This document shows positions 11,184 through 40,790 of a DNA stretch of 58,564 bases, in pieces. The DNA lies in contig NZ_JAAHHW010000037.1 in NCBI RefSeq assembly GCF_010692325.1, forward strand, positions 1 through 58,564, read 5' to 3'. Origin of the DNA: Moorena sp. SIO3I8 (GTDB lineage: Bacteria; Cyanobacteriota; Cyanobacteriia; Cyanobacteriales; Coleofasciculaceae). Below the pieces are notes generated by a model that was given only the letters and a program-made list of their open reading frames with translations, searched no databases and was not told where the DNA came from. A program made the translations under genes and the position numbers. The first letter of the stretch is position 1, and every line of letters begins with the position of its first letter.

Positions 11184-12685
11184 CAGTAGCAGCTCAAACC
11201 GTGAAGATTCAAACCTTTGTTCAACCCATTGACCGTACTGCTGGGGTAGTCATAGTTATACTGAGTCTACTGATTGGTATATTACTGTGGACTGGCGATC
11301 GCACTGCCCCCAGGGTACGGGAATTTTCCTGGCAAGATAAACAAATCGGTGCGGAGGATAAAGCATTTATCCTAACCTTCAGCCGTCCTATGGATCAGAC
11401 TAGTGTGGAAGCGAATCTGAACATTGTTCCACCCATCCCGGGCAAAATTAGCTGGGCTGGACGCAAAATGGCTTATACTCCGCTGCTCCCTTTACCCTAT
11501 GGCACCGAGTATCAATTCCAGCTCACTGGGGCAGTAGAGCAATTCGCTAAGCCTGGCAATAAGACTGCCATCGAACCGTTTAAGGCATCCTTCCGTACCC
11601 GTGACCGAGCCTTTGCCTATGTGGGTGTTAAAGCAGAAGAACAGGGGCGATTAATTTTCTATAATCTCACTCGCCAACAAAAAACTATCTTAACGCCTCC
11701 AGATTTGCTGGTTATGGACTTTAAGTTCTATCCTGATGGCAGCCGAATTCTTTTCTCTGCTGTTAGAAGTCAGAATAAAGAACAGGACTTGCTCTCTGCA
11801 AAATTATATACTGTGACCACGGGCATATCTACTCGTGCCCCAGCTCAAGAGACCGTATCCTCAGACTCTGGTGGTAAAGTTGAGCTGGTTCTCGATAGCA
11901 AAGACTACCAGAATCTGAAGTTTGATTTGTCTGCTGATGGTAAAACGATTGTGGTACAGCGGGTCAGTCGCAGTAATCCTTCGGAATTTGGGCTGTGGAC
12001 CATACAAACTGGTACTAAACCGAAACCATTAGACCATGAACCAGGAGGAGATTTTATGATTACTCCTGACAGCAACGCTATTGCGATGGCTCAAGGTCAG
12101 GGAGTGGGCATTTTACCCTTGACACCAAATGCTCAACCCCTAGACTTTTTACCGAAGTTTGGCATGGTCCTAAACTTTGCTAAGGATGGTTCAGCAGCAG
12201 TGATGGTGAAGTTTAATAGTGACTATACGCGATCGCTATTTTTAGTCAAAAACCAGGGCTCTGAGCAAGAGATACTGCGCACCACTGGTTCTGTCCATAG
12301 TTGTGAATTCTCGGCGCAAAACCATATTCTCTATTGTCTGCTCAGCCAACTCATTGCTGGGGAAGAATTCAAAGAAGAACCTTTCCTAGCAGCGATTAGC
12401 CTTAAACCTAATGACAAGAATGAGTATACCTTAAAGCGCTTGGTACTTTTACCGGAGCAACAGGAAGTTCATATGAGTTTGTCCCCAGATGACTTAGGTA
12501 TACTCTTTGATCAAATAGTCCCTGAACGGTCATCTGATGAAGGTTTGATCACTGATGAAGGACAAATAATTGCCAATGCTAGACTCTGGCTATTACCTTT
12601 AGTGGATGATACATCTTCAGATACTCCAGTGAAGCTGGAAGCGGAACCACTCCTAACTGGATTTAATGCTCGTTGGCTACCTTGA
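11177..12685 (+). CDS. Membrane-anchored Ig-like/beta-propeller protein
   Basis: A 502-residue protein. Residues about 22-40 (AGVVIVILSLLIGILLW) form one transmembrane helix, followed by a Big_5/SbsA-like Ig domain (FILTFSRPMDQTSVEANLNIVPP, PYGTEYQFQLTG) at about 45-140, and then a TolB/PD40-like propeller with repeated F-x-PDGSRILFSA, LSADGKTIVVQ and LSPDDLGILF blades. It probably faces the periplasm or exterior. No catalytic motif is seen. Its ATG lies inside the right end of the tnpB element, so the original start and promoter may have been displaced. Confidence 0.65.
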   Translation: MSTVAAQTVKIQTFVQPIDRTAGVVIVILSLLIGILLWTGDRTAPRVREFSWQDKQIGAEDKAFILTFSRPMDQTSVEANLNIVPPIPGKISWAGRKMAYTPLLPLPYGTEYQFQLTGAVEQFAKPGNKTAIEPFKASFRTRDRAFAYVGVKAEEQGRLIFYNLTRQQKTILTPPDLLVMDFKFYPDGSRILFSAVRSQNKEQDLLSAKLYTVTTGISTRAPAQETVSSDSGGKVELVLDSKDYQNLKFDLSADGKTIVVQRVSRSNPSEFGLWTIQTGTKPKPLDHEPGGDFMITPDSNAIAMAQGQGVGILPLTPNAQPLDFLPKFGMVLNFAKDGSAAVMVKFNSDYTRSLFLVKNQGSEQEILRTTGSVHSCEFSAQNHILYCLLSQLIAGEEFKEEPFLAAISLKPNDKNEYTLKRLVLLPEQQEVHMSLSPDDLGILFDQIVPERSSDEGLITDEGQIIANARLWLLPLVDDTSSDTPVKLEAEPLLTGFNARWLP

Positions 12686-12955
12686 AGGTTAGCAGGTTTA
12701 AGGTTAGTAGGTTGAACGCGATCGCGTGGCCAATAGGCCAAGGTTAGTAGGTTGAAGGTTAGTAGGTTGAAGGTTAGCTGGTTGAAGGTTAGTAGGTTGA
12801 AGGTTAGTAGGTTGAAGGTTAGCTGGTTGAAGGTTAGCTGGTTGAAGGTTAACAGGTTGAACGCGATCGCGTGGCCAATAGGCCAAGGTTAGCTAGTTGA
12901 AGGTTAGCAGGTTGAACGCGATCGCGTGGCCAATAGGCCAAGGTTAGCTGGTTGT
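12684..12955. repeat. 15-bp tandem array AAGGTTAGYWGGTTG with embedded HIP1
   Basis: About 14 units of AAGGTTAGTAGGTTG, AAGGTTAGCTGGTTG or AAGGTTAGCAGGTTG, interrupted three times by GAACGCGATCGCGTGGCC followed by AATAGGCCAAGG. The interruption is a HIP1 octamer joined to a GGCC-AATA-GGCC palindrome. It starts directly at the stop codon of the preceding gene. The same 15-mers form coding insertions inside cobN, and a relative occurs in mutS. Open frames across it are repeat artefacts. Confidence 0.9.
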
Positions 12956-12999
12956 AAGCATTCAGCCTTCAGCGGTCAGCTGTCAGCAGATGAATAGCA

Positions 13000-13232
13000 C
13001 TAACCTTAATTGGTAGTGCTATAACCTTAAACCTGTCGCCTTAAACCATCAAACCTTAAACCTGTAACCAAACAACCTTCAAACCAAACAACCTTCAACC
13101 TTCAAACCAAACAACCTTCAACCTTCAAACCAAACAACCTTCAACCTTCAAACCAAACAACCTTCAACCTTCAAACCTTCAACCTTCAACATTAAAACCT
13201 TCAACATTAAAACCTTCAACCTGTAACCTTAA
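13000..13232. repeat. CCTTCAAACCAAACAA array, about 23-bp period
   Basis: Complementary-strand relative of the previous array: CAACCTTCAACCTTCAAAC blocks separated by CAAACAACC, with a period near 23 bases. It ends 12 bases before the VOC gene start, so the promoter of that gene must lie in or before repeats. The period is not a multiple of three, unlike the 15-bp arrays that occur inside genes. Confidence 0.85.
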
Positions 13233-13243
13233 AGTAAAAGATT

Positions 13244-14967: not shown

Positions 14968-15042
14968 AAGCTATCAGCTATCAGCTATCAGCTATCAGCT
15001 ATCAGCTATCAGCTATCAGCTATCAGCTATCAGCTATCAGCC
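14968..15042. repeat. Heptanucleotide tandem repeat (AGCTATC), about 10 units
   Basis: Perfect head-to-tail AGCTATC heptamers directly after the recombinase stop. Short tandemly repeated heptanucleotides (STRR) are a known feature of filamentous cyanobacteria. The rest of the gap to 15273 (TTTGTAAAATTAAATACAG and an AT-rich stretch) shows nothing I can name except an expected promoter for the next gene. Confidence 0.9.
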
Positions 15043-16676: not shown

Positions 16677-17219
16677 CTAGAAGATATTCTGGTATTGGTT
16701 CCAACCGTCTGAAATAACCGTCTCCGCACCCCGATTCTGAAAGTTATTAGGATCCGGTAGACCACTATAGCTATAGTAGGACAGTTGACCATTGGGTTTT
16801 AGAGCAAACAGAACTCCAGAACCTCCAGAAAAAACTTTACTATATTCGTTCCAACCGTCTGAAATAACCTTCTCTGCACCCCGATTACGAAAGTTGTTAG
16901 GATCCGGTAGACCACTATAGCTATAGTAGGACAGTTGACCGTTGGGCTTTAGAGCAAACAGAACTCCAGAACCTCCAGAAAAAACTTTACTATATTCGTT
17001 CCAACCGTTTGAAATAACCTTCTCCGCACCCCGATTACGAAAGTTGTTAGGATCCGGTAGACCACTATAGCTATAGTAGGACAGTTGACCATTGGGCTTC
17101 AAGGCATAAAGAATCTGAACACCAGACTGACCTTGAGTCAAAACAGGGGTCAAGGTTGTTAGCCCGGTCATGGTAGCGAGTACAACCAAAAACCTTCGAC
17201 GTCTGATGACACTTTTCAT
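16677..17219 (-). CDS. Secreted tachylectin-like repeat protein
   Basis: A 180-residue protein with a signal peptide (MKSVIRRRRFLVVLATMTGLTT, cleavage near residue 30) and three nearly identical 50-residue repeats: ALKPNGQLSYYSYSG, LPDPNNFRNRGAEKVIS, GWNEYSKVFSGGSG. The pattern recalls tachylectin-2-type propeller blades, which bind N-acetyl sugars; tachylectin-2 has five blades of 47 residues. With three blades here, assembly of several chains or a partial gene is likely. The repeats are almost identical in DNA (150-bp period), so they expanded recently or are kept alike by conversion. It may bind surface glycans. Confidence 0.7.
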   Translation of the reverse strand: MKSVIRRRRFLVVLATMTGLTTLTPVLTQGQSGVQILYALKPNGQLSYYSYSGLPDPNNFRNRGAEKVISNGWNEYSKVFSGGSGVLFALKPNGQLSYYSYSGLPDPNNFRNRGAEKVISDGWNEYSKVFSGGSGVLFALKPNGQLSYYSYSGLPDPNNFQNRGAETVISDGWNQYQNIF

Positions 17220-17607: not shown

Positions 17608-17764
17608 ATGAATCAATCCATTAGATGTGTTTACTCTACTCCCTAGTATTTAAAAAAAACTATTGCGATAGAGTAATGTAAGCCCAGTGGAAATGAATCT
17701 AACAAACCGAGGGTGACTTGGATTAACCTCTTACTATAGAGTATTGGTATTTCTAGCTTAGTAA

Positions 17765-20700
17765 ATGAGCAGATCCCCTCAAGCATCTACTCCCGAATCC
17801 AACGATAACCTTCCGAAAAGGGCAACTGAAGCAGCAAGGAAAGTTGCGCCTGAGAATACTGACCATCGGACAGTGGACCGCAGTAAGCTGACACCGATGA
17901 TGCAGCATTTTGCTGAAGTAAAAGACCAGTATTCCCATGCTGTGCTGCTCTACCGAGTTGGGGACTTCTATGAAACCTTCTTTCAGGATGCCAGGATAAT
18001 TGCTGAAGCCCTGGAACTGGTCTTAACCAGCAAAGAAGCAGGTAAGGGAGTGGGACGGGTGCCAATGACGGGGGTTCCTCACCATGCTTTGGACCGCTAC
18101 AGCACCATGCTAGTGGAAAAAGGCTATGCGATCGCAATATGTGACCAAGTGGAAGATGCCTCAGTGGCAGCCAAAGAAGGACGTCAGGTGCGCCGGGAAG
18201 TCACCCGTGTCCTTACCCCCGGTACCTTGATGGAAGAGGAGATGCTCCATGCTCGTCGTAACAATTTCCTGGCAGCAGTAGTGATTGCTAAGAATCATTG
18301 GGGTTTAGCCTATGCAGATATTTCCACTGGGGAATTTCTGACTACTCAAGACCGAGAGTTAGACCTGCTGGTTCAGGAATTGATGCGCTTGCAGCCCTCT
18401 GAGGTATTAATTCCCACCAATGCTCCCGATTTGGGGAGTATGCTACGACCTGGTCAGACTTCTGAGAGTTTACCGGATTGTTTACCAAATTCATTTTGTT
18501 ATGCACTCCGTCCCCAACGACACTTTACCTTGGCCGAAGCCCGACAGCGACTGTTGGAACAGTTCAGAGTGCGATCGCTTGAAGGGTTAGGGTGTGAACA
18601 TCTCCCCCTTGGTGTCCGTGCTGCTGGTGGGTTGTTGGAATATCTCAAAGATACCCAAAAAGAAAATTATGTAGCGTTACAGATATTACGTACCTATACC
18701 ATTGCTGATTATTTAATTCTCGACCACCAGACTCGTCGCAATCTGGAAATTACTGCTACTGTCCGAGATAACACCTTTAATGGTTCCCTGCTTTGGGCTC
18801 TAGATCGAACCAGTACAGCCATGGGAGGTAGAGCATTGCGGCGCTGGCTACTGCAACCATTACTAGAGATTAAGGGAATCCGGGCACGACATGATACGAT
18901 CGCGGAATTGGTGGAAAATACTGGACTGCGCCAGGACTTACAGCAGCTGCTTCGGAAAATTTATGACTTGGAGCGGTTGACAGGTAAAGCAAGTTCTGGT
19001 AGAGCTAATGCCAGAAATTTAGTCGCCTTAGGGGATTCTCTGTTGAGGTTACCGGAATTAGCTGACCTAGCGGCTTATGGCTCTTCTCCCTATCTGAAAG
19101 TGATGCAGAATGTACCGCCACAATTGGAAGAGTTAGGGCACACAATCCAGGAGCATCTGGTAGAGTCACCACCGTTGCATCTGACTGAGGGGAAATTAAT
19201 TCGGCCTCAGGTCAACCAGCAGTTGGATGAAATGCGTGCTCAAGCCGAGGAGGATCAACAGTGGATTGCCAATTTGGAAGTGACGGAGCGGGAAAAGACA
19301 GATATTCCCAAGCTGAAGGTAGGGTTTAATAAGACTTTTGGATATTACATTAGTGTCCCTCGTGCTAAAACAGCTCAGGTACCAGATAACTATATTCGGA
19401 AGCAGACCTTGGTTAATGAAGAGCGCTACATAACCCCAGAGCTGAAGGAAAGGGAAGCACGGATTCTGACGGCCCGGGAGGATTTGAATCGTTTAGAGTA
19501 TGAAATTTTTGTAGGTTTGCGCCATGAGGTAGCGCTGGAAGCTGACAGGATTCGGGGTGTGTCTCGGGCAGTAGCAGCATTGGATGTGTTGTGTGGATTA
19601 GCAGAGGTCGCTGTTTATCAGGGATATTGTCGTCCCGATATGGATCAAAGCCGGGAAATTCGGATTATAGATGGACGGCATCCAGTGGTAGAGCAGTCCT
19701 TGCCCAGTGGTTTGTTTGTCCCGAATTCCGCGTCTTTAGGTCAAAACAAGTTGAAGGTTGACGGGGAGTTGAAGGTTGACGGGAAGTTGAAGCTTGAAGA
19801 GGAGTTGAAGGTTGACGGGGAGTTGAAGGTTGAAGGTTATTCTGAGTTGAACGTTGAAGAGGAGTTGAAGGTTGAAGAGGAGTTGAAGGTTGGAAGGTTG
19901 AAGGTTGAAGGTTCTTCCGAGTTGAACGTTGAAAATTATAACCAGCAACTAGATAACGAGCAACTAGATAACGAGCAACTGGATAACGAACAACCTGCTA
20001 ACCTTGGCCAAAAGGCCACGCTACGCGAACAACCTTCTAACCTTGGCCAAAAGGCCACGCTACGCGAACAACCTTCAACCGTTCCACCTTCTAACCTTCA
20101 ACCTTCTAACCTTCAACCTGCAACCGTCCAACCTTGGCCAAAAGGCCACGCTACGCGAACAACCGTCGAACCTGCCACCGAAACGGATAATCCTGATTTG
20201 ATTATTTTGACCGGACCTAACGCCAGTGGGAAGAGTTGTTATTTGCGTCAGATAGGATTGATTCAGTTGATGGCACAGGTGGGAAGTTTTGTGCCAGCAT
20301 CGGAAGCAAGTTTGGGGATATGCGATCGCATTTTTACCAGAGTCGGTGCGGTGGATGATTTAGCAACAGGCCAGTCTACGTTTATGGTGGAAATGAACGA
20401 GACAGCGAATATTCTCAATCATGCTACGGATAAGTCTTTAGTGTTGTTGGATGAGATTGGTCGAGGTACAGCAACCTTTGATGGTCTTTCCATAGCTTGG
20501 GCAGTGGGGGAGTATCTGGCCATGGAAATTAAGGCACGGACGATTTTTGCCACCCATTATCATGAGTTGAATGAGTTAGCCTCGATTTTGCCCAATGTCG
20601 CTAATTATCAAGTGACGGTAAAAGAGTTACCCAATGAAATCATCTTTTTGCATCAGGTACAGCCAGGAGGAGCTAACCGTTCTTATGGCATTGAGGCCGG

Positions 20701-20893
20701 ACGTTTAGCGGGTTTACCAACCTCAGTGATTAAGCGGGCGAAGCAGGTGATGAAGCAAATTGAGAAGCACAGCAAAATTGCCCTGGGGTTGCGCAAGGGG
20801 ATTGGCAAACAATTGTCAGCTAGGAACACAACTGGCCAAAAGGTGAGCGACCAAGAGGTGACCATCGAGCAGTTGGATATTTTTGATGACTAA
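17765..20893 (+). CDS. mutS: DNA mismatch repair protein MutS with a repeat-derived insertion
   Basis: A 1042-residue MutS1. The mismatch-reading Phe-x-Glu is present (RVGDFYETF, about 62-70), then connector, core and clamp domains, Walker [10 protein letters not shown] (about 816), Walker [11 protein letters not shown], the ATHYHEL loop, and the C-terminal dimer/HTH segment ([14 protein letters not shown]). Residues about 660-806 are an extra block with [12 protein letters not shown] repeats, three LDNEQ units and two [13 protein letters not shown] units, encoded by dispersed repeat DNA. Without it the protein is about 895 residues, normal for cyanobacteria. The insert sits just before the ATPase domain, a loop position that may tolerate extra length. 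No stop or shift occurs across it. It may still be functional. Confidence 0.95.
19741..20185 (+). repeat. In-frame dispersed-repeat block inside mutS
   Basis: The first part is TTGAAGGTTGACGGGGAG and variants (reads [12 protein letters not shown]), the middle is AACTAGATAACGAGC (QLDNE), and the last part is CAACCTTCTAACCTT units around three copies of TTGGCCAAAAGGCCACGCTA followed by CGCGAAC. The module is read in two frames within the same gene: as [11 protein letters not shown] twice and as [11 protein letters not shown] once. Confidence 0.9.
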
Positions 20894-21241
20894 GCCACCA
20901 TGATTGTGATCTGATTAACAACTACACAGTCAACACAGCTGATCAGTTAACGCGGATGGGATGGGACCTAGGAGCCGCTACGCGAAAGCATTCCCGCCCC
21001 TGCCCTTACGGAAAAAAGATCCGATTGCATAAATTTTTAAGCTAGCCCTGATTAGTATATAGACCTTAACTAATCAATTTTGGGAGCAGCTCCGTGACTA
21101 TAGACTACGCCACCTGTAGCTCTTGATAGGGATAAACCTTTAGTTTCTAAAGGGTAGCATCGTCGATTATAGCGCCATGTGAGCTATAAGTTTTGTGGAT
21201 TTGTATTTTTTTTTTAAGTTATTGGATGAGCGAGGAAACTT
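20894..21241. other. Gene-free stretch after mutS
   Basis: 348 bases without a gene. It contains a degraded repeat piece (GAGCCGCTACGCGAAAGCATTC near 20971) and a T-rich run (about 21206-21217). The next gene has a GAGGAAA ribosome binding site just before its ATG. No clear terminator for mutS is seen. Confidence 0.5.
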
Positions 21242-27106: not shown

Positions 27107-30100
27107 CTATACAATGCCAAAATTTTCTCCTTCAATCACTGCTTCTGCTTGTAATGCGATCGCTCTCAATTTCTCTAAGGTCTCTGGTGCAACTGACTGC
27201 CACAATCCCCGCTGATTAGCTTCCAGTAACCGTTCTGCCATATCTCGCAATGCCCATGGATTCTTTTGTTGGACAAACTCTTGGACGTCTGGGTCAAATA
27301 AATACCCCTGAGCTACTCCTTGATACATATGGTCTGCGACACAATTAGCGGTAGCATCATAGGCAAACAAATAATCTACCGTTGCTGCCATTTCAAATGC
27401 TCCCTTGTAACCATGGCGCATCACTCCCTCAATCCACTTAGGATTCACGACACGAGAACGGTACACTCGGGCAATCTCTTCCTTTAGCTGTCGAACTTTG
27501 GGCTTTTCAGGGATAGAATTATCACCAAAGTAGGTTTGAGGATTTTTGCCAGTTAACCCCCGCACCGCTACGGTTAACCCCCCCTGAAACTGGTAATAAT
27601 CATCTGAATCGAGTAAATCATGTTCCCGATTATCCTGATTGTGTAATACAATTTGCATCTGTTTCAGACGCTGCTCAAAGGCTTCTGGGGCTCCCTTGGG
27701 GGAAGATGAGCTGTAGGCGTAACTACTCCAGTTAATGTAAGCGCGAGCTAAATCCTGCTCATCTTGCCAGTTTTGAGATTCAATCAAACCCTGTAACCCG
27801 GCACCATAGGCTCCTGGTTTTGAGCCAAAGATGCGGTAGTGCGATCGCATTTGGGCTTGGGACTGACTCAACCCTACCTGTAACCAATCGTCTGTTTCCT
27901 GTTTCACCTGGGCTGCTAGAGGATTGTCTGATGGTGATTCATCCAGGCTTGCCACAGCAACTACTGCATTGTGAAATAGGTCGATTAAATTGGGGAAACT
28001 ATCTCTAAAGAAGCCAGAGATGCGCAGGGTCACATCCACTCGGGGACGTTGTAACACAGACACTGGCAATATTTCAAAGTCTACCACCCGCCGTGAGGAC
28101 CCATCCCAAATCGGTCGCACTCCCAACAACGCTAGAGCTTCGGAAATATCATCTCCCCCGGTACGCATGGTCGATGTGCCCCATACGGAAATTCCTAGGG
28201 TTTTGGGATACTCACCATTTTCCTGGGTATAGCGCTCCACTAGCACCTCAGCTGCCTTTCTGCCTACATCCCACGCTGTTTCTGTGGGTATGGCACGGAT
28301 ATCAACAGAGTAAAAATTCCGACCTGTGGGCAGAACATCCGGTCGTCCTCTAGTCGGCGCACCAGATGGCCCACTCGGTACATATCTCCCCTCTAATCCC
28401 CGTAACAATTGGGTAAGTTCTTGATTAGTTTGTTGTAGTGCTGGTAAAAGGCGATCGCGTATCCAATCTAATTCTTGTTTTGTTGTTTTAGTAATCGGTA
28501 ATCGATCATCAGTAATCGCTAATGGATAATTAGTGATGATTTGTTCTACTAATTTAGACGCTTCTTCTTCTAATACTTCAACCAAATCACCAACAGTATA
28601 TTTACCACTATAGCATTCCTCTGTTCCCTGTTCCTTATTCTCTGTTCCCTGTTCCCTTTCTATACTGCTTTTTGCTATCTCCTTAACCACTGAAAACTCT
28701 TCCGTTAGGGGGTCAAAACCCCAACCTAAATCCTGAGCTAAAGCACGAGTTAAGCCGATGCGATTCTTTCCTGGATGACGAGCAATTGCTACTATTAAAT
28801 CCTGCAATTGACGTCCTTGGGGACATTGACTAAAGACATGTAATCCATCTCGAATTTGAGCTTCTTTCAATTCACAAAGATAAGCATCAATTTGATTAGT
28901 AATTTCCGATTCTCCAGCTTCGATGTCGTCTACTTCAATCCCCAAATCTTCGTGCAAGTGCTCATCAAGGATAAGTCTAACAATGCGATCGCGAATAATT
29001 GGCAAGCGAGACAAATCCAAACTCTGCGCTTCATAATACTCATCAACCAATCCCTCCAACTGTTGCAGAGGACCATAAAGTTCAGCACGAGTCATGGGAG
29101 GGGTTAAATGATCAATAATCACCCCTTGAGCGCGACGCTTTGCTTGAGCACCCTCCCCCGGATCATTGACAATAAATGGATACAAATGAGGCATGGCTGC
29201 CAACGCTACTTCTGGATAACAGCACTCTGACAAGGCCACACTCTTACCCGGTAACCACTCCAAATTCCCATGCTTGCCCACATGAACAATTGCTTGGGCA
29301 CCAAAACACTTCCGCAACCAATAATAAAATGCCAAATACCCATCAGTGGGTTCCAAATCGGGAGCATGATAATTCAAAGCTGGGTCAAGATCATAACCCC
29401 GAGAGGGTTGAATCCCTACAAACACATTTCCCAACTGAATCCCTGAAATGGGAAATCCCGAAATCTCGGTTATCTCTCCCTGGCCATTTTTGCGGTCTTT
29501 ACCGTTAAGATCAAACTCTCCCCAACGCTCACGGATTCCCTTTTGAACCCCTATCGGTAACCCTTGAAAATAGTCCCAATACTCCTGCCAACTCAACTCC
29601 TGTCGTACCAAACGTAACTGCCATCCTTCCGGATCATTGGTCACCCCAGCGGTCAACCACTCAATCAACTCATCCCCAGTTTCCGGAATCTTCTCAACCC
29701 AATACCCAGCATCCCGTAACCCTTTTAAAATCTCCACACAACTGGCCGGGGTATCTAATCCTACGCCATTGGCCAGCCTGCCATCTCGATTGGGGTAATT
29801 CGCTAAAATCAGAGCAACCTTTCTCTGATTCGGTAGGGTTTGCCGTAACCGTAGCCAATTCATGGCTAAATCTGCTACAAACTGAATGCGATCGCATACT
29901 GGTTCATAAACCACCACATCCGTTTCCAGAGCAGGATTCCACCGTTGCGCCGACTTAAAGGAAATCGCACGACTAATAATTCGCCCATCCACCTCTGGCA
30001 ACGCCACATTCATGGCAGTATCCCTAGGCATCAATCCCTGAAACCCAGACTCCCACTGTTCCACCGTGCCACTACTTAAAATAACCTGCAACACAGGCAC

Positions 30101-31429
30101 ATCCAGCCCTTCCCACAACTCCAACTGATGTACCTCAGCATCCAACTTAGCCACCGAGAAACTAGTCGTATTCAGCAACACTGCGATCGCGTAGCGTGAG
30201 CAAAGCTCAATCGCACTACTAGAGCTATCGGGAGTTTGGAAATAGCCTAACAATTCCCTTTGTACCTCTAGATCCCGTAAAGAAGACACAAACACTGGCA
30301 CCGGTTCCAAGCCCCGTTCTACCAAAGCCTGACATAACCCATCAATCGGTGCTGTATTTCCCGCTAAGTAATGGGCACGGTAGAACAGGATACCTACTTT
30401 AAGATTGCCAGCAGCTTGAAGGTTAGCAGGTTGAAGGTTTGTTTTGGTTGAAGGTTGTTTGGTTGAAGGTTGAAGGTTTATGTTGGTTGAAGGTTGTTTG
30501 GTTGAAGGTTGAAGGTTTGTTTTGGTTGAAGGTTGAAGGTTGGTTTTGGTTGAAGGTTGAAGGTTTGTTTTGGTTGAAGGTTGTTTGGTTGTTTGCCTTT
30601 GGCCTTCGAGTAGGGTAGGTTGTTCGCCCTTGGTGTTGCCTTCGGGTAGGTTATTTGGTTCCTGGTTATCCTCCCAACCTTGGCCAATAGGCCACGCTTT
30701 CGGCAAAGCCGACGCTGCGCGAACGCGAACAACCTTCAACCTGCTAACCTTCAACTTTTCAACCAACCTGCTAACCTTCAACCTGTTAACCTTCAACCTG
30801 TTAACCTTCAACCTGCTAACCTTCAACCTGCTAACCTTCAACCTGCTAACCTTCAACTTGCTAACCTTTATGCCCGATTGCCATGGATAAACCCCAACCC
30901 GAGGCACAGGTTTGGGTGGTGGTGGATTATTGGTTTGCTCCAGGCATACATCTGCCACAAATTTCAGAGCATTAGTGAAATTCTCAACACCGCCTTCTGT
31001 AAAGTAGCGCCATAATTGATTCACTATCGGAATAGTTTCTGTGGAGTGACTAGTTAAGGTAGGATCTGGTCGGTCATCTCCTGGTAAAACCAATAATGTA
31101 GCGCCAGTTTGTTCTACTGTTTCTTTCACCACTTCTAAGCCATAGGACCAGTAGGAGCGTCCACCCAATAATCTGATAATGATAATCCGTGCTTTGGCTA
31201 AAATATCCTCAGCATAGGTATCAATGGTTAGTTGTTGCTGCAACTGCAACAAGTTAGCGACTCGGATAGCTGGGAAATCTGGGGGAAGTTGGGATACTGA
31301 TGCGGCTAGGGTTTGGATATCGGTGTCAGCAGCAGTGAGGAAAATAATCGGTGCTGGGGTTTGTTCGATGAAGATAACCCCTTCAGCTTCAGGGTTCCAT
31401 CCTCCCGGAGTTGCGGCGATGCGATGCAT
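27107..31429 (-). CDS. cobN: Cobaltochelatase subunit CobN with repeat-derived insertions
   Basis: A 1440-residue CobN-type chelatase. Landmarks are SGTVEQWESGFQGLMPRDTAM, KVALILANYPNRDGRLANGVGLD, YHAPDLEPTDGYLAFYYWL, VHVGKHGNLEWLPGK, and the late CobN/BchH signature YVPSGPSGAPTRGRPDVLPT. It inserts cobalt (with ATPase partners) into the corrin ring; cyanobacterial CobN proteins are about 1250 residues. The excess comes from a block at residues about 187-341 (KVSRL repeats, then QPSTKTNL repeats) and a shorter block around residues 935-985 (REQGTENKEQGTE and NYPLAITDDRLPITK). Both lie between conserved regions and keep the frame. No B12 riboswitch was recognised upstream. Confidence 0.93.
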   Translation of the reverse strand: MHRIAATPGGWNPEAEGVIFIEQTPAPIIFLTAADTDIQTLAASVSQLPPDFPAIRVANLLQLQQQLTIDTYAEDILAKARIIIIRLLGGRSYWSYGLEVVKETVEQTGATLLVLPGDDRPDPTLTSHSTETIPIVNQLWRYFTEGGVENFTNALKFVADVCLEQTNNPPPPKPVPRVGVYPWQSGIKVSKLKVSRLKVSRLKVSRLKVNRLKVNRLKVSRLVEKLKVSRLKVVRVRAASALPKAWPIGQGWEDNQEPNNLPEGNTKGEQPTLLEGQRQTTKQPSTKTNLQPSTKTNLQPSTKTNLQPSTKQPSTNINLQPSTKQPSTKTNLQPANLQAAGNLKVGILFYRAHYLAGNTAPIDGLCQALVERGLEPVPVFVSSLRDLEVQRELLGYFQTPDSSSSAIELCSRYAIAVLLNTTSFSVAKLDAEVHQLELWEGLDVPVLQVILSSGTVEQWESGFQGLMPRDTAMNVALPEVDGRIISRAISFKSAQRWNPALETDVVVYEPVCDRIQFVADLAMNWLRLRQTLPNQRKVALILANYPNRDGRLANGVGLDTPASCVEILKGLRDAGYWVEKIPETGDELIEWLTAGVTNDPEGWQLRLVRQELSWQEYWDYFQGLPIGVQKGIRERWGEFDLNGKDRKNGQGEITEISGFPISGIQLGNVFVGIQPSRGYDLDPALNYHAPDLEPTDGYLAFYYWLRKCFGAQAIVHVGKHGNLEWLPGKSVALSECCYPEVALAAMPHLYPFIVNDPGEGAQAKRRAQGVIIDHLTPPMTRAELYGPLQQLEGLVDEYYEAQSLDLSRLPIIRDRIVRLILDEHLHEDLGIEVDDIEAGESEITNQIDAYLCELKEAQIRDGLHVFSQCPQGRQLQDLIVAIARHPGKNRIGLTRALAQDLGWGFDPLTEEFSVVKEIAKSSIEREQGTENKEQGTEECYSGKYTVGDLVEVLEEEASKLVEQIITNYPLAITDDRLPITKTTKQELDWIRDRLLPALQQTNQELTQLLRGLEGRYVPSGPSGAPTRGRPDVLPTGRNFYSVDIRAIPTETAWDVGRKAAEVLVERYTQENGEYPKTLGISVWGTSTMRTGGDDISEALALLGVRPIWDGSSRRVVDFEILPVSVLQRPRVDVTLRISGFFRDSFPNLIDLFHNAVVAVASLDESPSDNPLAAQVKQETDDWLQVGLSQSQAQMRSHYRIFGSKPGAYGAGLQGLIESQNWQDEQDLARAYINWSSYAYSSSSPKGAPEAFEQRLKQMQIVLHNQDNREHDLLDSDDYYQFQGGLTVAVRGLTGKNPQTYFGDNSIPEKPKVRQLKEEIARVYRSRVVNPKWIEGVMRHGYKGAFEMAATVDYLFAYDATANCVADHMYQGVAQGYLFDPDVQEFVQQKNPWALRDMAERLLEANQRGLWQSVAPETLEKLRAIALQAEAVIEGENFGIV
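28490..28672 (-). repeat. Two small repeat-derived coding insertions in cobN
   Basis: TCTGTTCCCTGTTCC copies (about 28618-28666) are the complement of the GGGAACA family and read REQGTENKEQGTE. Next to them TAATCGGTAATCGATCATC (about 28491-28545) resembles the TAATCAGTAATTAGG cluster at 23401 and reads NYPLAITDDRLPITK. Both are in frame between conserved CobN segments. Confidence 0.7.
30409..30871 (-). repeat. Large in-frame repeat block inside cobN
   Basis: On the plus strand: GGTTGAAGGTTTGTTTT arrays (30418-30590), a GGCCTTCGAGTAGGG segment, one TTGGCCAATAGGCCACGC module with a GCAAAGCCGACGCTGCGCG extension (30683-30725), and CAACCTGCTAACCTT 15-mers (30730-30870). Read on the minus strand as KVSRL units, then WPIGQGWEDN, then QPSTKTNL units. 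The 15-mers match the noncoding array at 12684-12955. Confidence 0.9.
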
Positions 31430-37902: not shown

Positions 37903-40443
37903 ATGTCAGAGGATACAGATACCAAGTCAGGCTCACAGCAAACCCCCCTCGCCGCTTGGCGTGCCCAAGAACTACAACGACTCCGCAATAGTTTAAGACG
38001 GGGACAACAACCAATGGCCGACTGGCAAGGGGGAACCTTAGCGGTTTCTGCTGTCCCTGGTGCTGGGAAATCTACTGGCATGGCAAAAGCTGCAGCAATT
38101 GCGATCGCAAATTACCAACTCCATAGCAGATATCAATTGCTGGTAGTCACCTTCACTCGCTCTGCGGCTGCCAGTATTCGAGCTAAAATCCGCGATGACC
38201 TAAAAACCCTTAAGGTCCCACAAAATAGTTTTGTAGTCTATACCTTACATGGTTTAGCCCTCTACATTGCTAACCGTCATCCAGAATTATCGGGACTTAA
38301 TCTAGACAGTAGTACTCTAGTAACTCCAAATCAAAGTCATCGCTTAATCCGTGCTTGTGTGGAACAGTGGATTGCTAATTATCCACGCCGGTATCTTACC
38401 TTGCTCGAAGGTCGAAGCTTTGATGGAGAAGAAACAGAACGGTTGCGCAGACAATCCGTATTGCGAACGGAAGTGTTACCTAACCTGGCCTACACTGTTA
38501 TCCATGAAGCCAAAAGTTCTGGGTTATTACCAGCAGATTTGTGGCACCTCAGTGAACAGACAACCGATGAATATGGGATATTAGCGATCGCAGCAGGACT
38601 GTATCAACAGTATCAAACCATAGTGCGATCGCGTGAGTTTATCGACTACGATGACATGATTCTAGCCGCGCTGAGAGTCCTACAAAACGATGCCATCCGT
38701 CAGCTCTGGCAAAATCAATTTTTTGCCGTCTTTGAAGACGAAGCCCAAGATTCCACACCGTTACAATACCGACTCTTGCAAACCCTAGCCACATTCCCAG
38801 CTAGTTCCGAACCAAACCTTGAACCTTGGCCTATTGGCCACGCTACGCGAACAACCTCCCAACCTTCAACCTCCCAACCTTCAACCTCCCAACCTTCAAC
38901 CTCCCAACCTTCAACCTCCCAACCTTCAACCTCCCAACCTTCAACCTCCCAACCTTCAACCTCCCAACCTTTAACAAATCTGATCCGAGTTGGAGACCCC
39001 AATCAAGCCATTAACTCTACCTTTACCCCAGCTGACCCGATTTACTTCAATTGGTTTTGCCAAAAATGTCAGGGAATAGGACGTTTAGCCACAATGGATC
39101 AAGCGGGTCGCAGTAGCCAGGTTATCATCGATGCTGCCAACTTTATCGTGAATTGGGTCAATAGCACCTATGGCAGCAAAAACTCTACCGAAACAGTACC
39201 ACAGCCAGACTCTATCCCCCAAACCGAACCAGCGACGGAGCTACCCTTTCGTCCTCAAACCATTCGTCGAGTCGATGCCAATGACCCTCAACCGGATGCC
39301 AACCCAAATCCAGAAGGGAGAGGTTTAGAACTCTACACTCCTAAGGACATCTACCACACAGTCGAGCTGATTGGAAAGCGAGTAGTGGAGCTATTTGCCA
39401 AAAACCAAAACCATAACGCTGCTGTGCTGGTGCGGGAGAATCGACAAGGGACTTTTGTGGTGGAACAACTGGAGTATCTCAAACGCCAGCATGGGATTGA
39501 AGTGTATGATGTCCAAAAACGCGATCGCGAATCCCACGTTCCCAGTCAAATCCTAACACTGCTGCAATTTCTCGACCGTCCCCATTCTCCGGATTACCTA
39601 AAAGCTGCCCTAGATGTCTTGGTAAAACGTCAGTTAATTCCCACCCAAGACCTCAATGCTTTATCCACCTATCCCGAACAATTCCTCTATCCTGGTCCAT
39701 TGGACCCACCCCAGACAAAAGCAGTTATCAAAGCTCGCCGCTACTGCTGTGATTTACTGCGTGCTCGTCTAGAACTCCCCAATTATCACCTAATTTCCTT
39801 CCTAGCTCAGACCTTAAACTATGACCAATCCGAGCTAGCCACAGCAGATAAATTAGCCGAACGGATAGCAAAACAGACCTTTGGCAACAGTTCTATCAGT
39901 GAAACTCTAACAGTACTTCAGGAAATCGTTAGCTCAGAACGTTTTGAACCTGTAGACCCAGACAATACAGACTCCCCTTATCTGCGTTCCCATCAACTGA
40001 CTGTAATCACCATGCACAAAGCCAAAGGATTAGACTGGGACTATGTTTTCTTGCCCTTTCTCCATGAAGACACCCTTCCAGGTAATCCGTGGGTACCTAC
40101 TGCTGCTCAGTTTTTGGGAGAATTTACCCTAGCAGAAGTAGCCAGAGCTCAAATTCGTGCCTACCTTCACGGTAAACCCTTACCCATGGCACCCGAGGCT
40201 TGGGAACAAGCCGCACAGCTTAAGACTGCTGAAGAATTCCGCTTACTCTACGTAGCCATGACCCGAGCTAAACGGTTGCTGTGGATGGCCGCCGCCGATT
40301 TGGGACCATTTCGGTGGAATACCTTTAGTGGTAAAGGAGATAACTTGCAGCAGAAGAAACCCTGTCCAGTATTGCCAGCATTGAAAGCTCAGTTTCCAAA
40401 TTCTTTAATGGTTAATGATTACAGCGGTTGGCAATTCAATTAG
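37903..40443 (+). CDS. UvrD/PcrA-type superfamily 1 helicase with an in-frame repeat array
   Basis: An 846-residue helicase: motif I SAVPGAGKSTGM (about 49-60), Ia VTFTRSAAASIRAKI, II FAVFEDEAQDST, III LIRVGDPNQAIN, V TMHKAKGLDWDYVFLP, VI RLLYVAMTRAKRLLW. It unwinds or strips DNA in repair or replication restart. Between motifs II and III (residues about 305-357) lies an extra block, EPWPIGHATRTT followed by eight QPSTS-like pentapeptides, encoded by the dispersed repeat module and 15-bp units. Helicase motifs on both sides remain intact and in frame. Confidence 0.85.
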   Translation: MSEDTDTKSGSQQTPLAAWRAQELQRLRNSLRRGQQPMADWQGGTLAVSAVPGAGKSTGMAKAAAIAIANYQLHSRYQLLVVTFTRSAAASIRAKIRDDLKTLKVPQNSFVVYTLHGLALYIANRHPELSGLNLDSSTLVTPNQSHRLIRACVEQWIANYPRRYLTLLEGRSFDGEETERLRRQSVLRTEVLPNLAYTVIHEAKSSGLLPADLWHLSEQTTDEYGILAIAAGLYQQYQTIVRSREFIDYDDMILAALRVLQNDAIRQLWQNQFFAVFEDEAQDSTPLQYRLLQTLATFPASSEPNLEPWPIGHATRTTSQPSTSQPSTSQPSTSQPSTSQPSTSQPSTSQPSTSQPLTNLIRVGDPNQAINSTFTPADPIYFNWFCQKCQGIGRLATMDQAGRSSQVIIDAANFIVNWVNSTYGSKNSTETVPQPDSIPQTEPATELPFRPQTIRRVDANDPQPDANPNPEGRGLELYTPKDIYHTVELIGKRVVELFAKNQNHNAAVLVRENRQGTFVVEQLEYLKRQHGIEVYDVQKRDRESHVPSQILTLLQFLDRPHSPDYLKAALDVLVKRQLIPTQDLNALSTYPEQFLYPGPLDPPQTKAVIKARRYCCDLLRARLELPNYHLISFLAQTLNYDQSELATADKLAERIAKQTFGNSSISETLTVLQEIVSSERFEPVDPDNTDSPYLRSHQLTVITMHKAKGLDWDYVFLPFLHEDTLPGNPWVPTAAQFLGEFTLAEVARAQIRAYLHGKPLPMAPEAWEQAAQLKTAEEFRLLYVAMTRAKRLLWMAAADLGPFRWNTFSGKGDNLQQKKPCPVLPALKAQFPNSLMVNDYSGWQFN
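38822..38973 (+). repeat. In-frame repeat block inside the helicase
   Basis: One TTGGCCTATTGGCCACGCTA module with CGCGAAC (38825-38853), then eight 15-bp units CAACCTCCCAACCTT (38854-38973). The module is read here as PWPIGHATRTT, a different frame from [11 protein letters not shown] in mutS. Confidence 0.92.
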
Positions 40444-40457
40444 GTACAAATTTATGG

Positions 40458-40790
40458 GTTTTTAGGGAGCAGGGAGCAGGGAGCAGGGAGTAGGAAAACA
40501 ATCCTGTTTACCTGATAGTTATGCAAATCTAATGGTTAATGGTTAATTGAAGAACAATGACAATTTTTAAATTAACCATTAACCCATTAATAAAACTAGA
40601 TTTTATAAGCTTTTAATTCTATGATTTAGATAATTAATCTACAAGATATAGCAGAAGTCAGAAGTCAGAAGTCAGAAGTCAGAAGTCAGAAGTCAGAAGT
40701 CAGAAGTCAGAAGTCAGAAGTCAGAAGTCAGAAGTCAGAAGTCAGAAGTCAGAAGTCAGAAGTCAGAAGTCAGAAGTCAAACTCTTGCGC
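40458..40790. repeat. Heptanucleotide arrays after the helicase
   Basis: GGGAGCA heptamers (40464-40490) and about twenty perfect AGAAGTC heptamers (40652-40789). AT-rich DNA lies between them. No gene is present from 40444 to 40882 apart from the truncated 5' end of the next one. Confidence 0.92.

Follow-up and report, generated by a model that had tools for sequence, protein, structure and literature searches.

The mutS1 gene and its insert

The window, i.e., the whole stretch of 58,564 nt of Moorena sp. SIO3I8 DNA analysed here, contains a mutS1 gene whose 1042-residue product displays all five MutS domains (I–V) in a Pfam search and scores above the cut-off of the MutS1 equivalogs NF003810 and TIGR01070. 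As supposed in the earlier note, this gene carries a real repeat-derived insert, read in frame; in an alignment with E. coli MutS it falls where the ATPase domain begins and takes the place of two residues (605–606), which presumably belong to a surface turn. The insert is composed of a left arm of AAGGTT units, a run of 15-nt units and a right arm of AACCTT units, and contains three copies of the GGCCAAAAGGCCACGCTACGCGAA module (Table 1); the claim that this module is read in two frames within one protein proved correct, the copies at 20000–20032 and 20039–20071 giving the same 11-residue peptide and the copy at 20132–20164 a different one. The longest perfect tandem stretches of the insert have periods of 39 (79 bp), 18 (40 bp) and 15 (37 and 34 bp) and are frame-safe; perfect heptad stretches reach 21 bp, and one stretch of period 8 covers 16 bp. 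The insert contains neither an intein domain nor a known intron RNA, no intein domain being present among the Pfam hits of the window MutS and no Rfam match being returned for positions 17700–20950 up to E 1.

Table 1. Position and strand of the mutS1 gene, its insert and other repeat arrays of the window, with the lengths of the insert sites in the genomes compared (native linker residues included).
Feature	Position	Strand	Description	Site length (nt)
mutS1 ORF	17765–20893	+	1042 codons	
Repeat-derived insert of mutS1	19742–20191	+	residues 660–809, ~150 codons, starts after FVPNSASLG	453/453/294
Left arm of mutS insert	19754–19913	+	AAGGTT units, LKV text	
15-nt units of mutS insert	19938–19994	+	read QLDNE	
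Right arm of mutS insert	20000–20135	+	AACCTT units and two module copies	
Third module copy of mutS insert	20132–20164	+	read in another frame	
Array in CobN/Mg-chelatase H ORF (27107–31429)	30419–30868	-	two-armed, in frame	486/462/192/42
Array in UvrD-like helicase ORF (37903–40443)	38815–38971	+	one arm and module, in frame, just before GDPNQ	201/171/246/120
Intergenic array	12685–13233		two-armed, full of stops, non-coding control	
MutS2				186/537/177/135
RND transporter				300/408/459
CheA hybrid, three sites				405/528/411; 288/291/357; 510/423/561
AnmK				477/519
PMT glycosyltransferase				312/342
LeuA				225/309
FAD oxidoreductase				333/303
ThiL-like protein (name from its text only)				357/297

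The repeat family in the genus

Four genomes of the genus, one per species, were compared: the window genome (G000, a 510-contig draft), G001 (20 contigs), G002 (10 contigs) and G003. In whole-genome pattern counts the module GGCCACGCTACGCGAAC is present in 380, 433, 357 and 176 copies, respectively, and is missing from 15 other genomes; reversed as a control, the pattern gives 0 in all 19. The CAACCTT pattern occurs in 125, 290, 144 and 15 copies in the genus, in 3 copies in G006 and 10 in G009, and is absent from the remaining 13 of the 15 non-genus genomes; its reversed control is found once in G003 and once in G009. Most in-gene arrays share one design, an AAGGTT arm followed by an AACCTT arm, which together form an imperfect palindrome; a GGCC..GGCCACGCTACGCGAA module is often present as well.

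The distribution of the arrays was assessed in G001 and G002, from which 1.16 Mb was sampled in 20-kb stretches chosen regardless of hits (the hit-picked locus L200 being excluded). ORFs of at least 250 aa make up 63% of the bases of this sample but hold 4 of its 24 arrays and 5 of its 45 exact modules, so that genes are depleted of arrays without being free of them. The AAGGTT arm comes first in all 11 two-armed arrays of this sample. The loci read contain 72 distinct arrays (orthologs counted apart), of which 43 are two-armed, 32/47 within ORFs and 11/25 elsewhere, and all 43 keep this order. The commonest spacing is 7 in non-ORF arrays (128/372) and ranks second in ORF arrays (113/593). Spacings divisible by three (332/593 in ORF arrays, 120/372 elsewhere) are weakly informative, and they make up the whole array in only 7/47 ORF arrays and 2/25 others. 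The module is found, in the same orientation, in 39 copies over the 47 in-ORF arrays (orthologs counted apart), 12 in one frame and 27 in a second. Amino-acid choice at the variable codon was considered as a further line of evidence and dropped, the non-ORF units being too few.

In the window, the idea of the earlier note that the units fill intergenic DNA holds for one array, while three of the four array clusters lie inside long ORFs (Table 1). Eighteen named genes, mutS among them, have such inserts; beyond the window, where the loci were mostly picked for a hit in a long ORF, the hosts are SMC, an RND transporter, an FAD oxidoreductase, a B12 radical-SAM protein, a PMT glycosyltransferase, MenD and Mfd, as well as AnmK, a CheA hybrid (three inserts), a DAHL histidine kinase, a WD40 protein, MutS2, PurL, LeuA and PutA. 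Two insert-bearing ORFs (L277 and L284) are without a Pfam match at 1e-8; inserts are also present in other ORFs such as L321, L325, L328 and L344. In MutS2 the insert lies just before LVLLDEVGAGTDP, which we take to be the Walker B motif, in all four genomes of the genus (L278, L312, L313, L314), at a site of 135–537 nt. Several of the hosts, namely MutS, MutS2, the UvrD-like helicase, Mfd and SMC, are DNA repair or chromosome proteins, which may amount to a bias towards repair genes.

The CobN site is occupied by the LKV/NLQP repeat in G000 and G001, by unrelated text in G002, and is almost empty in G003. In G002 the CobN gene is broken, its two parts lying about 63 kb from each other (L333 and L316; G002:C1:6553000-6559500 and 6490500-6494000), the split being either a real rearrangement or a misassembly. 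Both breaks fall at another in-frame repeat text, FAPLAPQ..GEIELKSPRIGGFRGL, and the C-terminal half is fused to an N-terminal part which, by eye, reads like a copper ATPase. The CobN of the window has two further heptad-like texts at residues ~920–1015, REQGTENKEQGTEE and NYPLAITDDRLPIT, and thus three repeat kinds in one ORF.

Reading frame at coding and non-coding sites

At the 13 in-gene sites of Table 1, with the first genome of the site as the reference, all 23 non-zero length changes are divisible by three and free of stops. Nine of these sites were taken from loci that had been chosen for their long open frames, and are biased towards intact frames. Sites compared in every genome of the genus give 10 of 10 (one change in mutS, for which G003 is left out, and three each in UvrD, CobN and MutS2). 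At four non-coding array sites, a multiple of three is found in one of nine changes (Fisher p 1.2e-4 for 10/10 and 8.6e-7 for 23/23); this control excludes three non-independent re-comparisons against another reference (residues 2, 0, 0), mirror rows and eight empty rows of L328. No ORF of 60 codons runs across eight of the nine control arrays; the ninth, in L313, is crossed by ORFs of 70 and 74 codons, so that this site may be partly coding.

The unit sequences differ in how easily they stay open: repetition of the CAACCTT heptad alone leaves all frames open, that of the AAGGTTG heptad alone leaves none, and the 15- and 18-nt units have one open frame in the AAGGTTG direction. Short arrays can be open by chance, since 10 of all 25 non-ORF arrays, short ones included, have some open frame (14/150 frames); the openness of the mutS insert exceeds chance, since among non-ORF arrays of at least 250 nt only 1 of 11 is open (1/66 frames).

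The mutS insert across the genus

Repeat text occupies the same mutS site in all four genomes, with differing content. The site measures 453 nt in the window genome, 453 nt in G001 and 294 nt in G002, being open and in frame in the latter two, so that unit number and content vary between species in these three genomes; the window and G001 copies have equal length and different text, and a run of 100 N inside the G003 insert leaves its frame beyond judgement. The distance from FVPNS to TGPN amounts to 107–160 residues in the three complete copies and 13–51 in the rightly anchored loci outside the genus, a count that leaves out five mis-anchored rows and four without hit, one of which is G003.

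On both sides of the insert the protein is well conserved, the identity to the window MutS ranging from 98 to 100% in the N-terminal part and from 96 to 98% in the C-terminal part. With dN/dS values of 0.065, 0.036 and 0.055 for the N-terminal part and 0.060, 0.110 and 0.188 for the C-terminal part (G001, G002 and G003, respectively, against the window), the flanks are under purifying selection. Since dN/dS is low in the flanks and MutL scores above the cut-off in all four genomes, the MutS of the genus looks functional. The proposal that unit number might alter MutS activity or mutation rate finds no support in these data, given the selection on the flanks, the presence of MutL in 4/4 genomes and the intact frame of the three complete copies.

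The MutS insert site outside the genus

Among 30 aligned MutS sequences, the insert site is the main length-variable place: at least five extra residues are found there in 10 of 27 non-genus sequences, the next place having them in 3. Unrelated repeats, often heptads, occupy this site in other cyanobacteria, and 11 of 20 non-genus linkers of at least 45 nt show a 7-nt periodicity with p below 0.05 relative to the rest of the same gene. In four genomes (G006, G009, G030 and G013) the pattern counted over the whole genome lies in the MutS linker itself: CCCCCCTTAAAAAGGGGG is present in 15 copies each in G009 and G006, CAGAGGCNCAGAGGAC in 3 copies in G030 and GGGGARTGGGGARTGGGG in 54 copies in G013. 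The MutS linkers of G010, G017, G018 and G007 lack the counted pattern, which has 7 copies elsewhere in G010 and 118 in G018. The linker patterns are unspecific: out of 57 genomes, 27, 16 and 27 contain them, and for the third pattern the reversed control gives as many as 15 copies in G035.

Compared with other genes, 7 of 45 MutS sequences (6 in the linker) and 12 of 427 ORFs are hit by a repeat, or 5 and 6, and 3 and 3, at stricter thresholds, the ten background genomes having been chosen partly for repeat-like linkers; as MutS is longer than most ORFs, its excess per kb is modest. A k-mer comparison of the linkers with ~80 kb per genome was dropped as underpowered, the positive control G002 having failed and only G013 standing out.

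Interpretation and rival explanations

The reading that we favour, with a probability of about 0.75, is that the inserts are linkers derived from repeats and tolerated by their host proteins, with selection preserving the frame. A genus-specific dispersed repeat, consisting of an AAGGTT arm, a spacer or GGCC module and an AACCTT arm, would have settled in a tolerant site of MutS, probably before the split of the four sampled species, and the same repeat would occupy tolerant sites of other proteins of the genus. The insert would be translated as a long linker, assumed to be unstructured and probably neutral, whose unit number turns over through recombination or slippage, mostly in steps of 15, 18 and 39 nt; selection would purge the copies that break the frame, so that multiples of three survive and non-coding copies vary freely, and MutS would stay functional despite this turnover. 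As the same repeat is found in other proteins, and unrelated repeats are found at the MutS site elsewhere, the site is best read as permissive rather than as made for MutS. Three observations sit less well with tolerated linkers: the broken CobN of G002 has its site in frame too, the C-terminal part of the G003 MutS has the highest dN/dS, and the two arms form a strong RNA pairing, for which a passive linker has no use. The last point concerns the mutS insert (-161.9 vs -119.2, sd 5.7, z -7.5) and 10 of the 11 inserts tested (z -4.0 to -16.6), the one-armed UvrD insert giving -0.8; six mutS windows outside the insert give z -2.6 to 1.8.

This contrast in folding is what might be expected if the two-arm hairpin helped to remove or skip the insert at the level of RNA or translation, a highly improbable explanation in view of the missing Rfam and intein matches and of the frame data, a spliced or bypassed insert having no need to stay open or to be a multiple of three, as 23 of 23 changes are. 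It is unlikely that the insert is an adaptive linker, tuning by its length or composition the ATPase, the dimer or the MutL contacts of MutS: the recurrence of repeat text at this site across genera and its place directly before the ATPase domain would fit such a role, yet the content turns over between near-identical MutS proteins, as in the equally long G000 and G001 inserts, and the excess of MutS over other ORFs is modest. A broader variant, according to which the pre-ATPase site is evolvable throughout cyanobacteria, lineages recruiting their abundant repeats and unit number setting repair efficiency, so that the repeat load feeds back on mutation rate, appears very unlikely.

It is distinctly unlikely that the gain or loss of 7-nt units toggles the frame of MutS as a contingency switch giving rise to reversible mutator lineages. 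Tandem-repeat switches in mismatch-repair genes have been reported, a small tandem repeat of Salmonella mutL toggling function and switching mutability in the part of that report available to us (PMC2955026), and the heptad and period-8 stretches of the mutS insert could in principle behave likewise; against this, the longest perfect repeats are frame-safe, the three complete mutS copies (one genome per species) are in frame between flanks under purifying selection, and the same repeats are found in PurL, LeuA, MenD and SMC, where switching makes little sense. Moreover, 15-nt units of E. coli tolA are described, in the part of the study available, as changing in frame at 6.9e-5, in a RecA-dependent manner and with no significant effect of mutS (PMC3477136); because of this comparison, unit turnover in the mutS insert may by analogy depend on RecA-dependent recombination, with a small effect of MutS. 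Finally, the draft state of the window genome and the N run of G003 might raise the suspicion of an assembly or binning artefact; this is hardly conceivable, and the assembly error envisaged in the earlier note did not materialise, the insert being carried in frame by the far less fragmented G001 and G002.

Relation to known repeat systems

The closest precedent for tolerated repeat-derived linkers is given by the Rickettsia palindromic elements (RPEs), which, according to the part of the source available, are palindromic repeats dispersed over the genome that lie in frame within unrelated genes and also outside genes (PMC10969869). The genus repeat is likewise multicopy and dispersed, palindromic (the AAGGTT arm preceding the AACCTT arm in 11/11 two-armed arrays) and in frame in unrelated genes. 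It departs from the RPE description (~150 bp, conserved peptide) in its site lengths of 120–561 nt, in its module read in two frames, in its tandem arms, whose length varies from species to species, and in its host. REPINs are small palindromic multicopy elements, present also in Nostoc punctiforme in the part of the source available (PMC3116915); the genus repeat shares this character with them. Small dispersed repeats, reportedly treated by Elhai in 2008, are similar in this respect. REPINs and small dispersed repeats are mostly short and mostly lie outside genes, unlike the genus repeat. PARCEL repeats are tandem repeats in coding regions and show dyad symmetry at the DNA level (PMC2996958); as far as the accessible part of that paper goes, they form 25-residue amphipathic domains in ORFs without assigned functions, whereas the genus inserts lie in housekeeping enzymes. 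The tolA case shares the in-frame copy change of 15-nt units but, in the accessible part of its source, concerns one gene and no dispersed family; Salmonella mutL shares the presence of a repeat in a mismatch-repair gene, as far as its report was available, with no toggling seen in the three complete mutS copies of the genus.

Among the best-ranked literature matches, drawn mostly from papers outside subscription journals, none deals with in-frame repeats in any gene of the genus, or in the mutS of cyanobacteria. Judged by the sources seen, the genus repeat offers a clear example, from a host other than Rickettsia, of a dispersed palindromic repeat lying in frame in many core enzymes, with the non-coding copies acting as a built-in neutral control. 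Tandem repeats would be able to add ~40–190 residues to housekeeping proteins, making the insert tolerance of enzymes measurable; if the activity of MutS did depend on the insert, the repeat content of the genome would be coupled to mutation rate.

STRR are heptanucleotide tandem repeats of cyanobacteria. The genus repeat has in common with repeats of the STRR type or TAACTGA type its 7-nt units in multicopy arrays, and is set apart by paired inverted arms, units of 15, 18 and 39 nt, the GGCC module and its position inside core genes. An earlier study, as cited in PMC4679880, reported that repeat units divisible by three are the likeliest to occur in coding regions. The window also contains two perfect heptad arrays, CAGAAGT x18.3 at 40652–40779 and AGCTATC x10.4 at 14969–15041, and, on the minus strand at 16677–17219, a 180-aa ORF made of near-identical 150-nt repeats with NGQLSYYSYSGLPDPNNF text.
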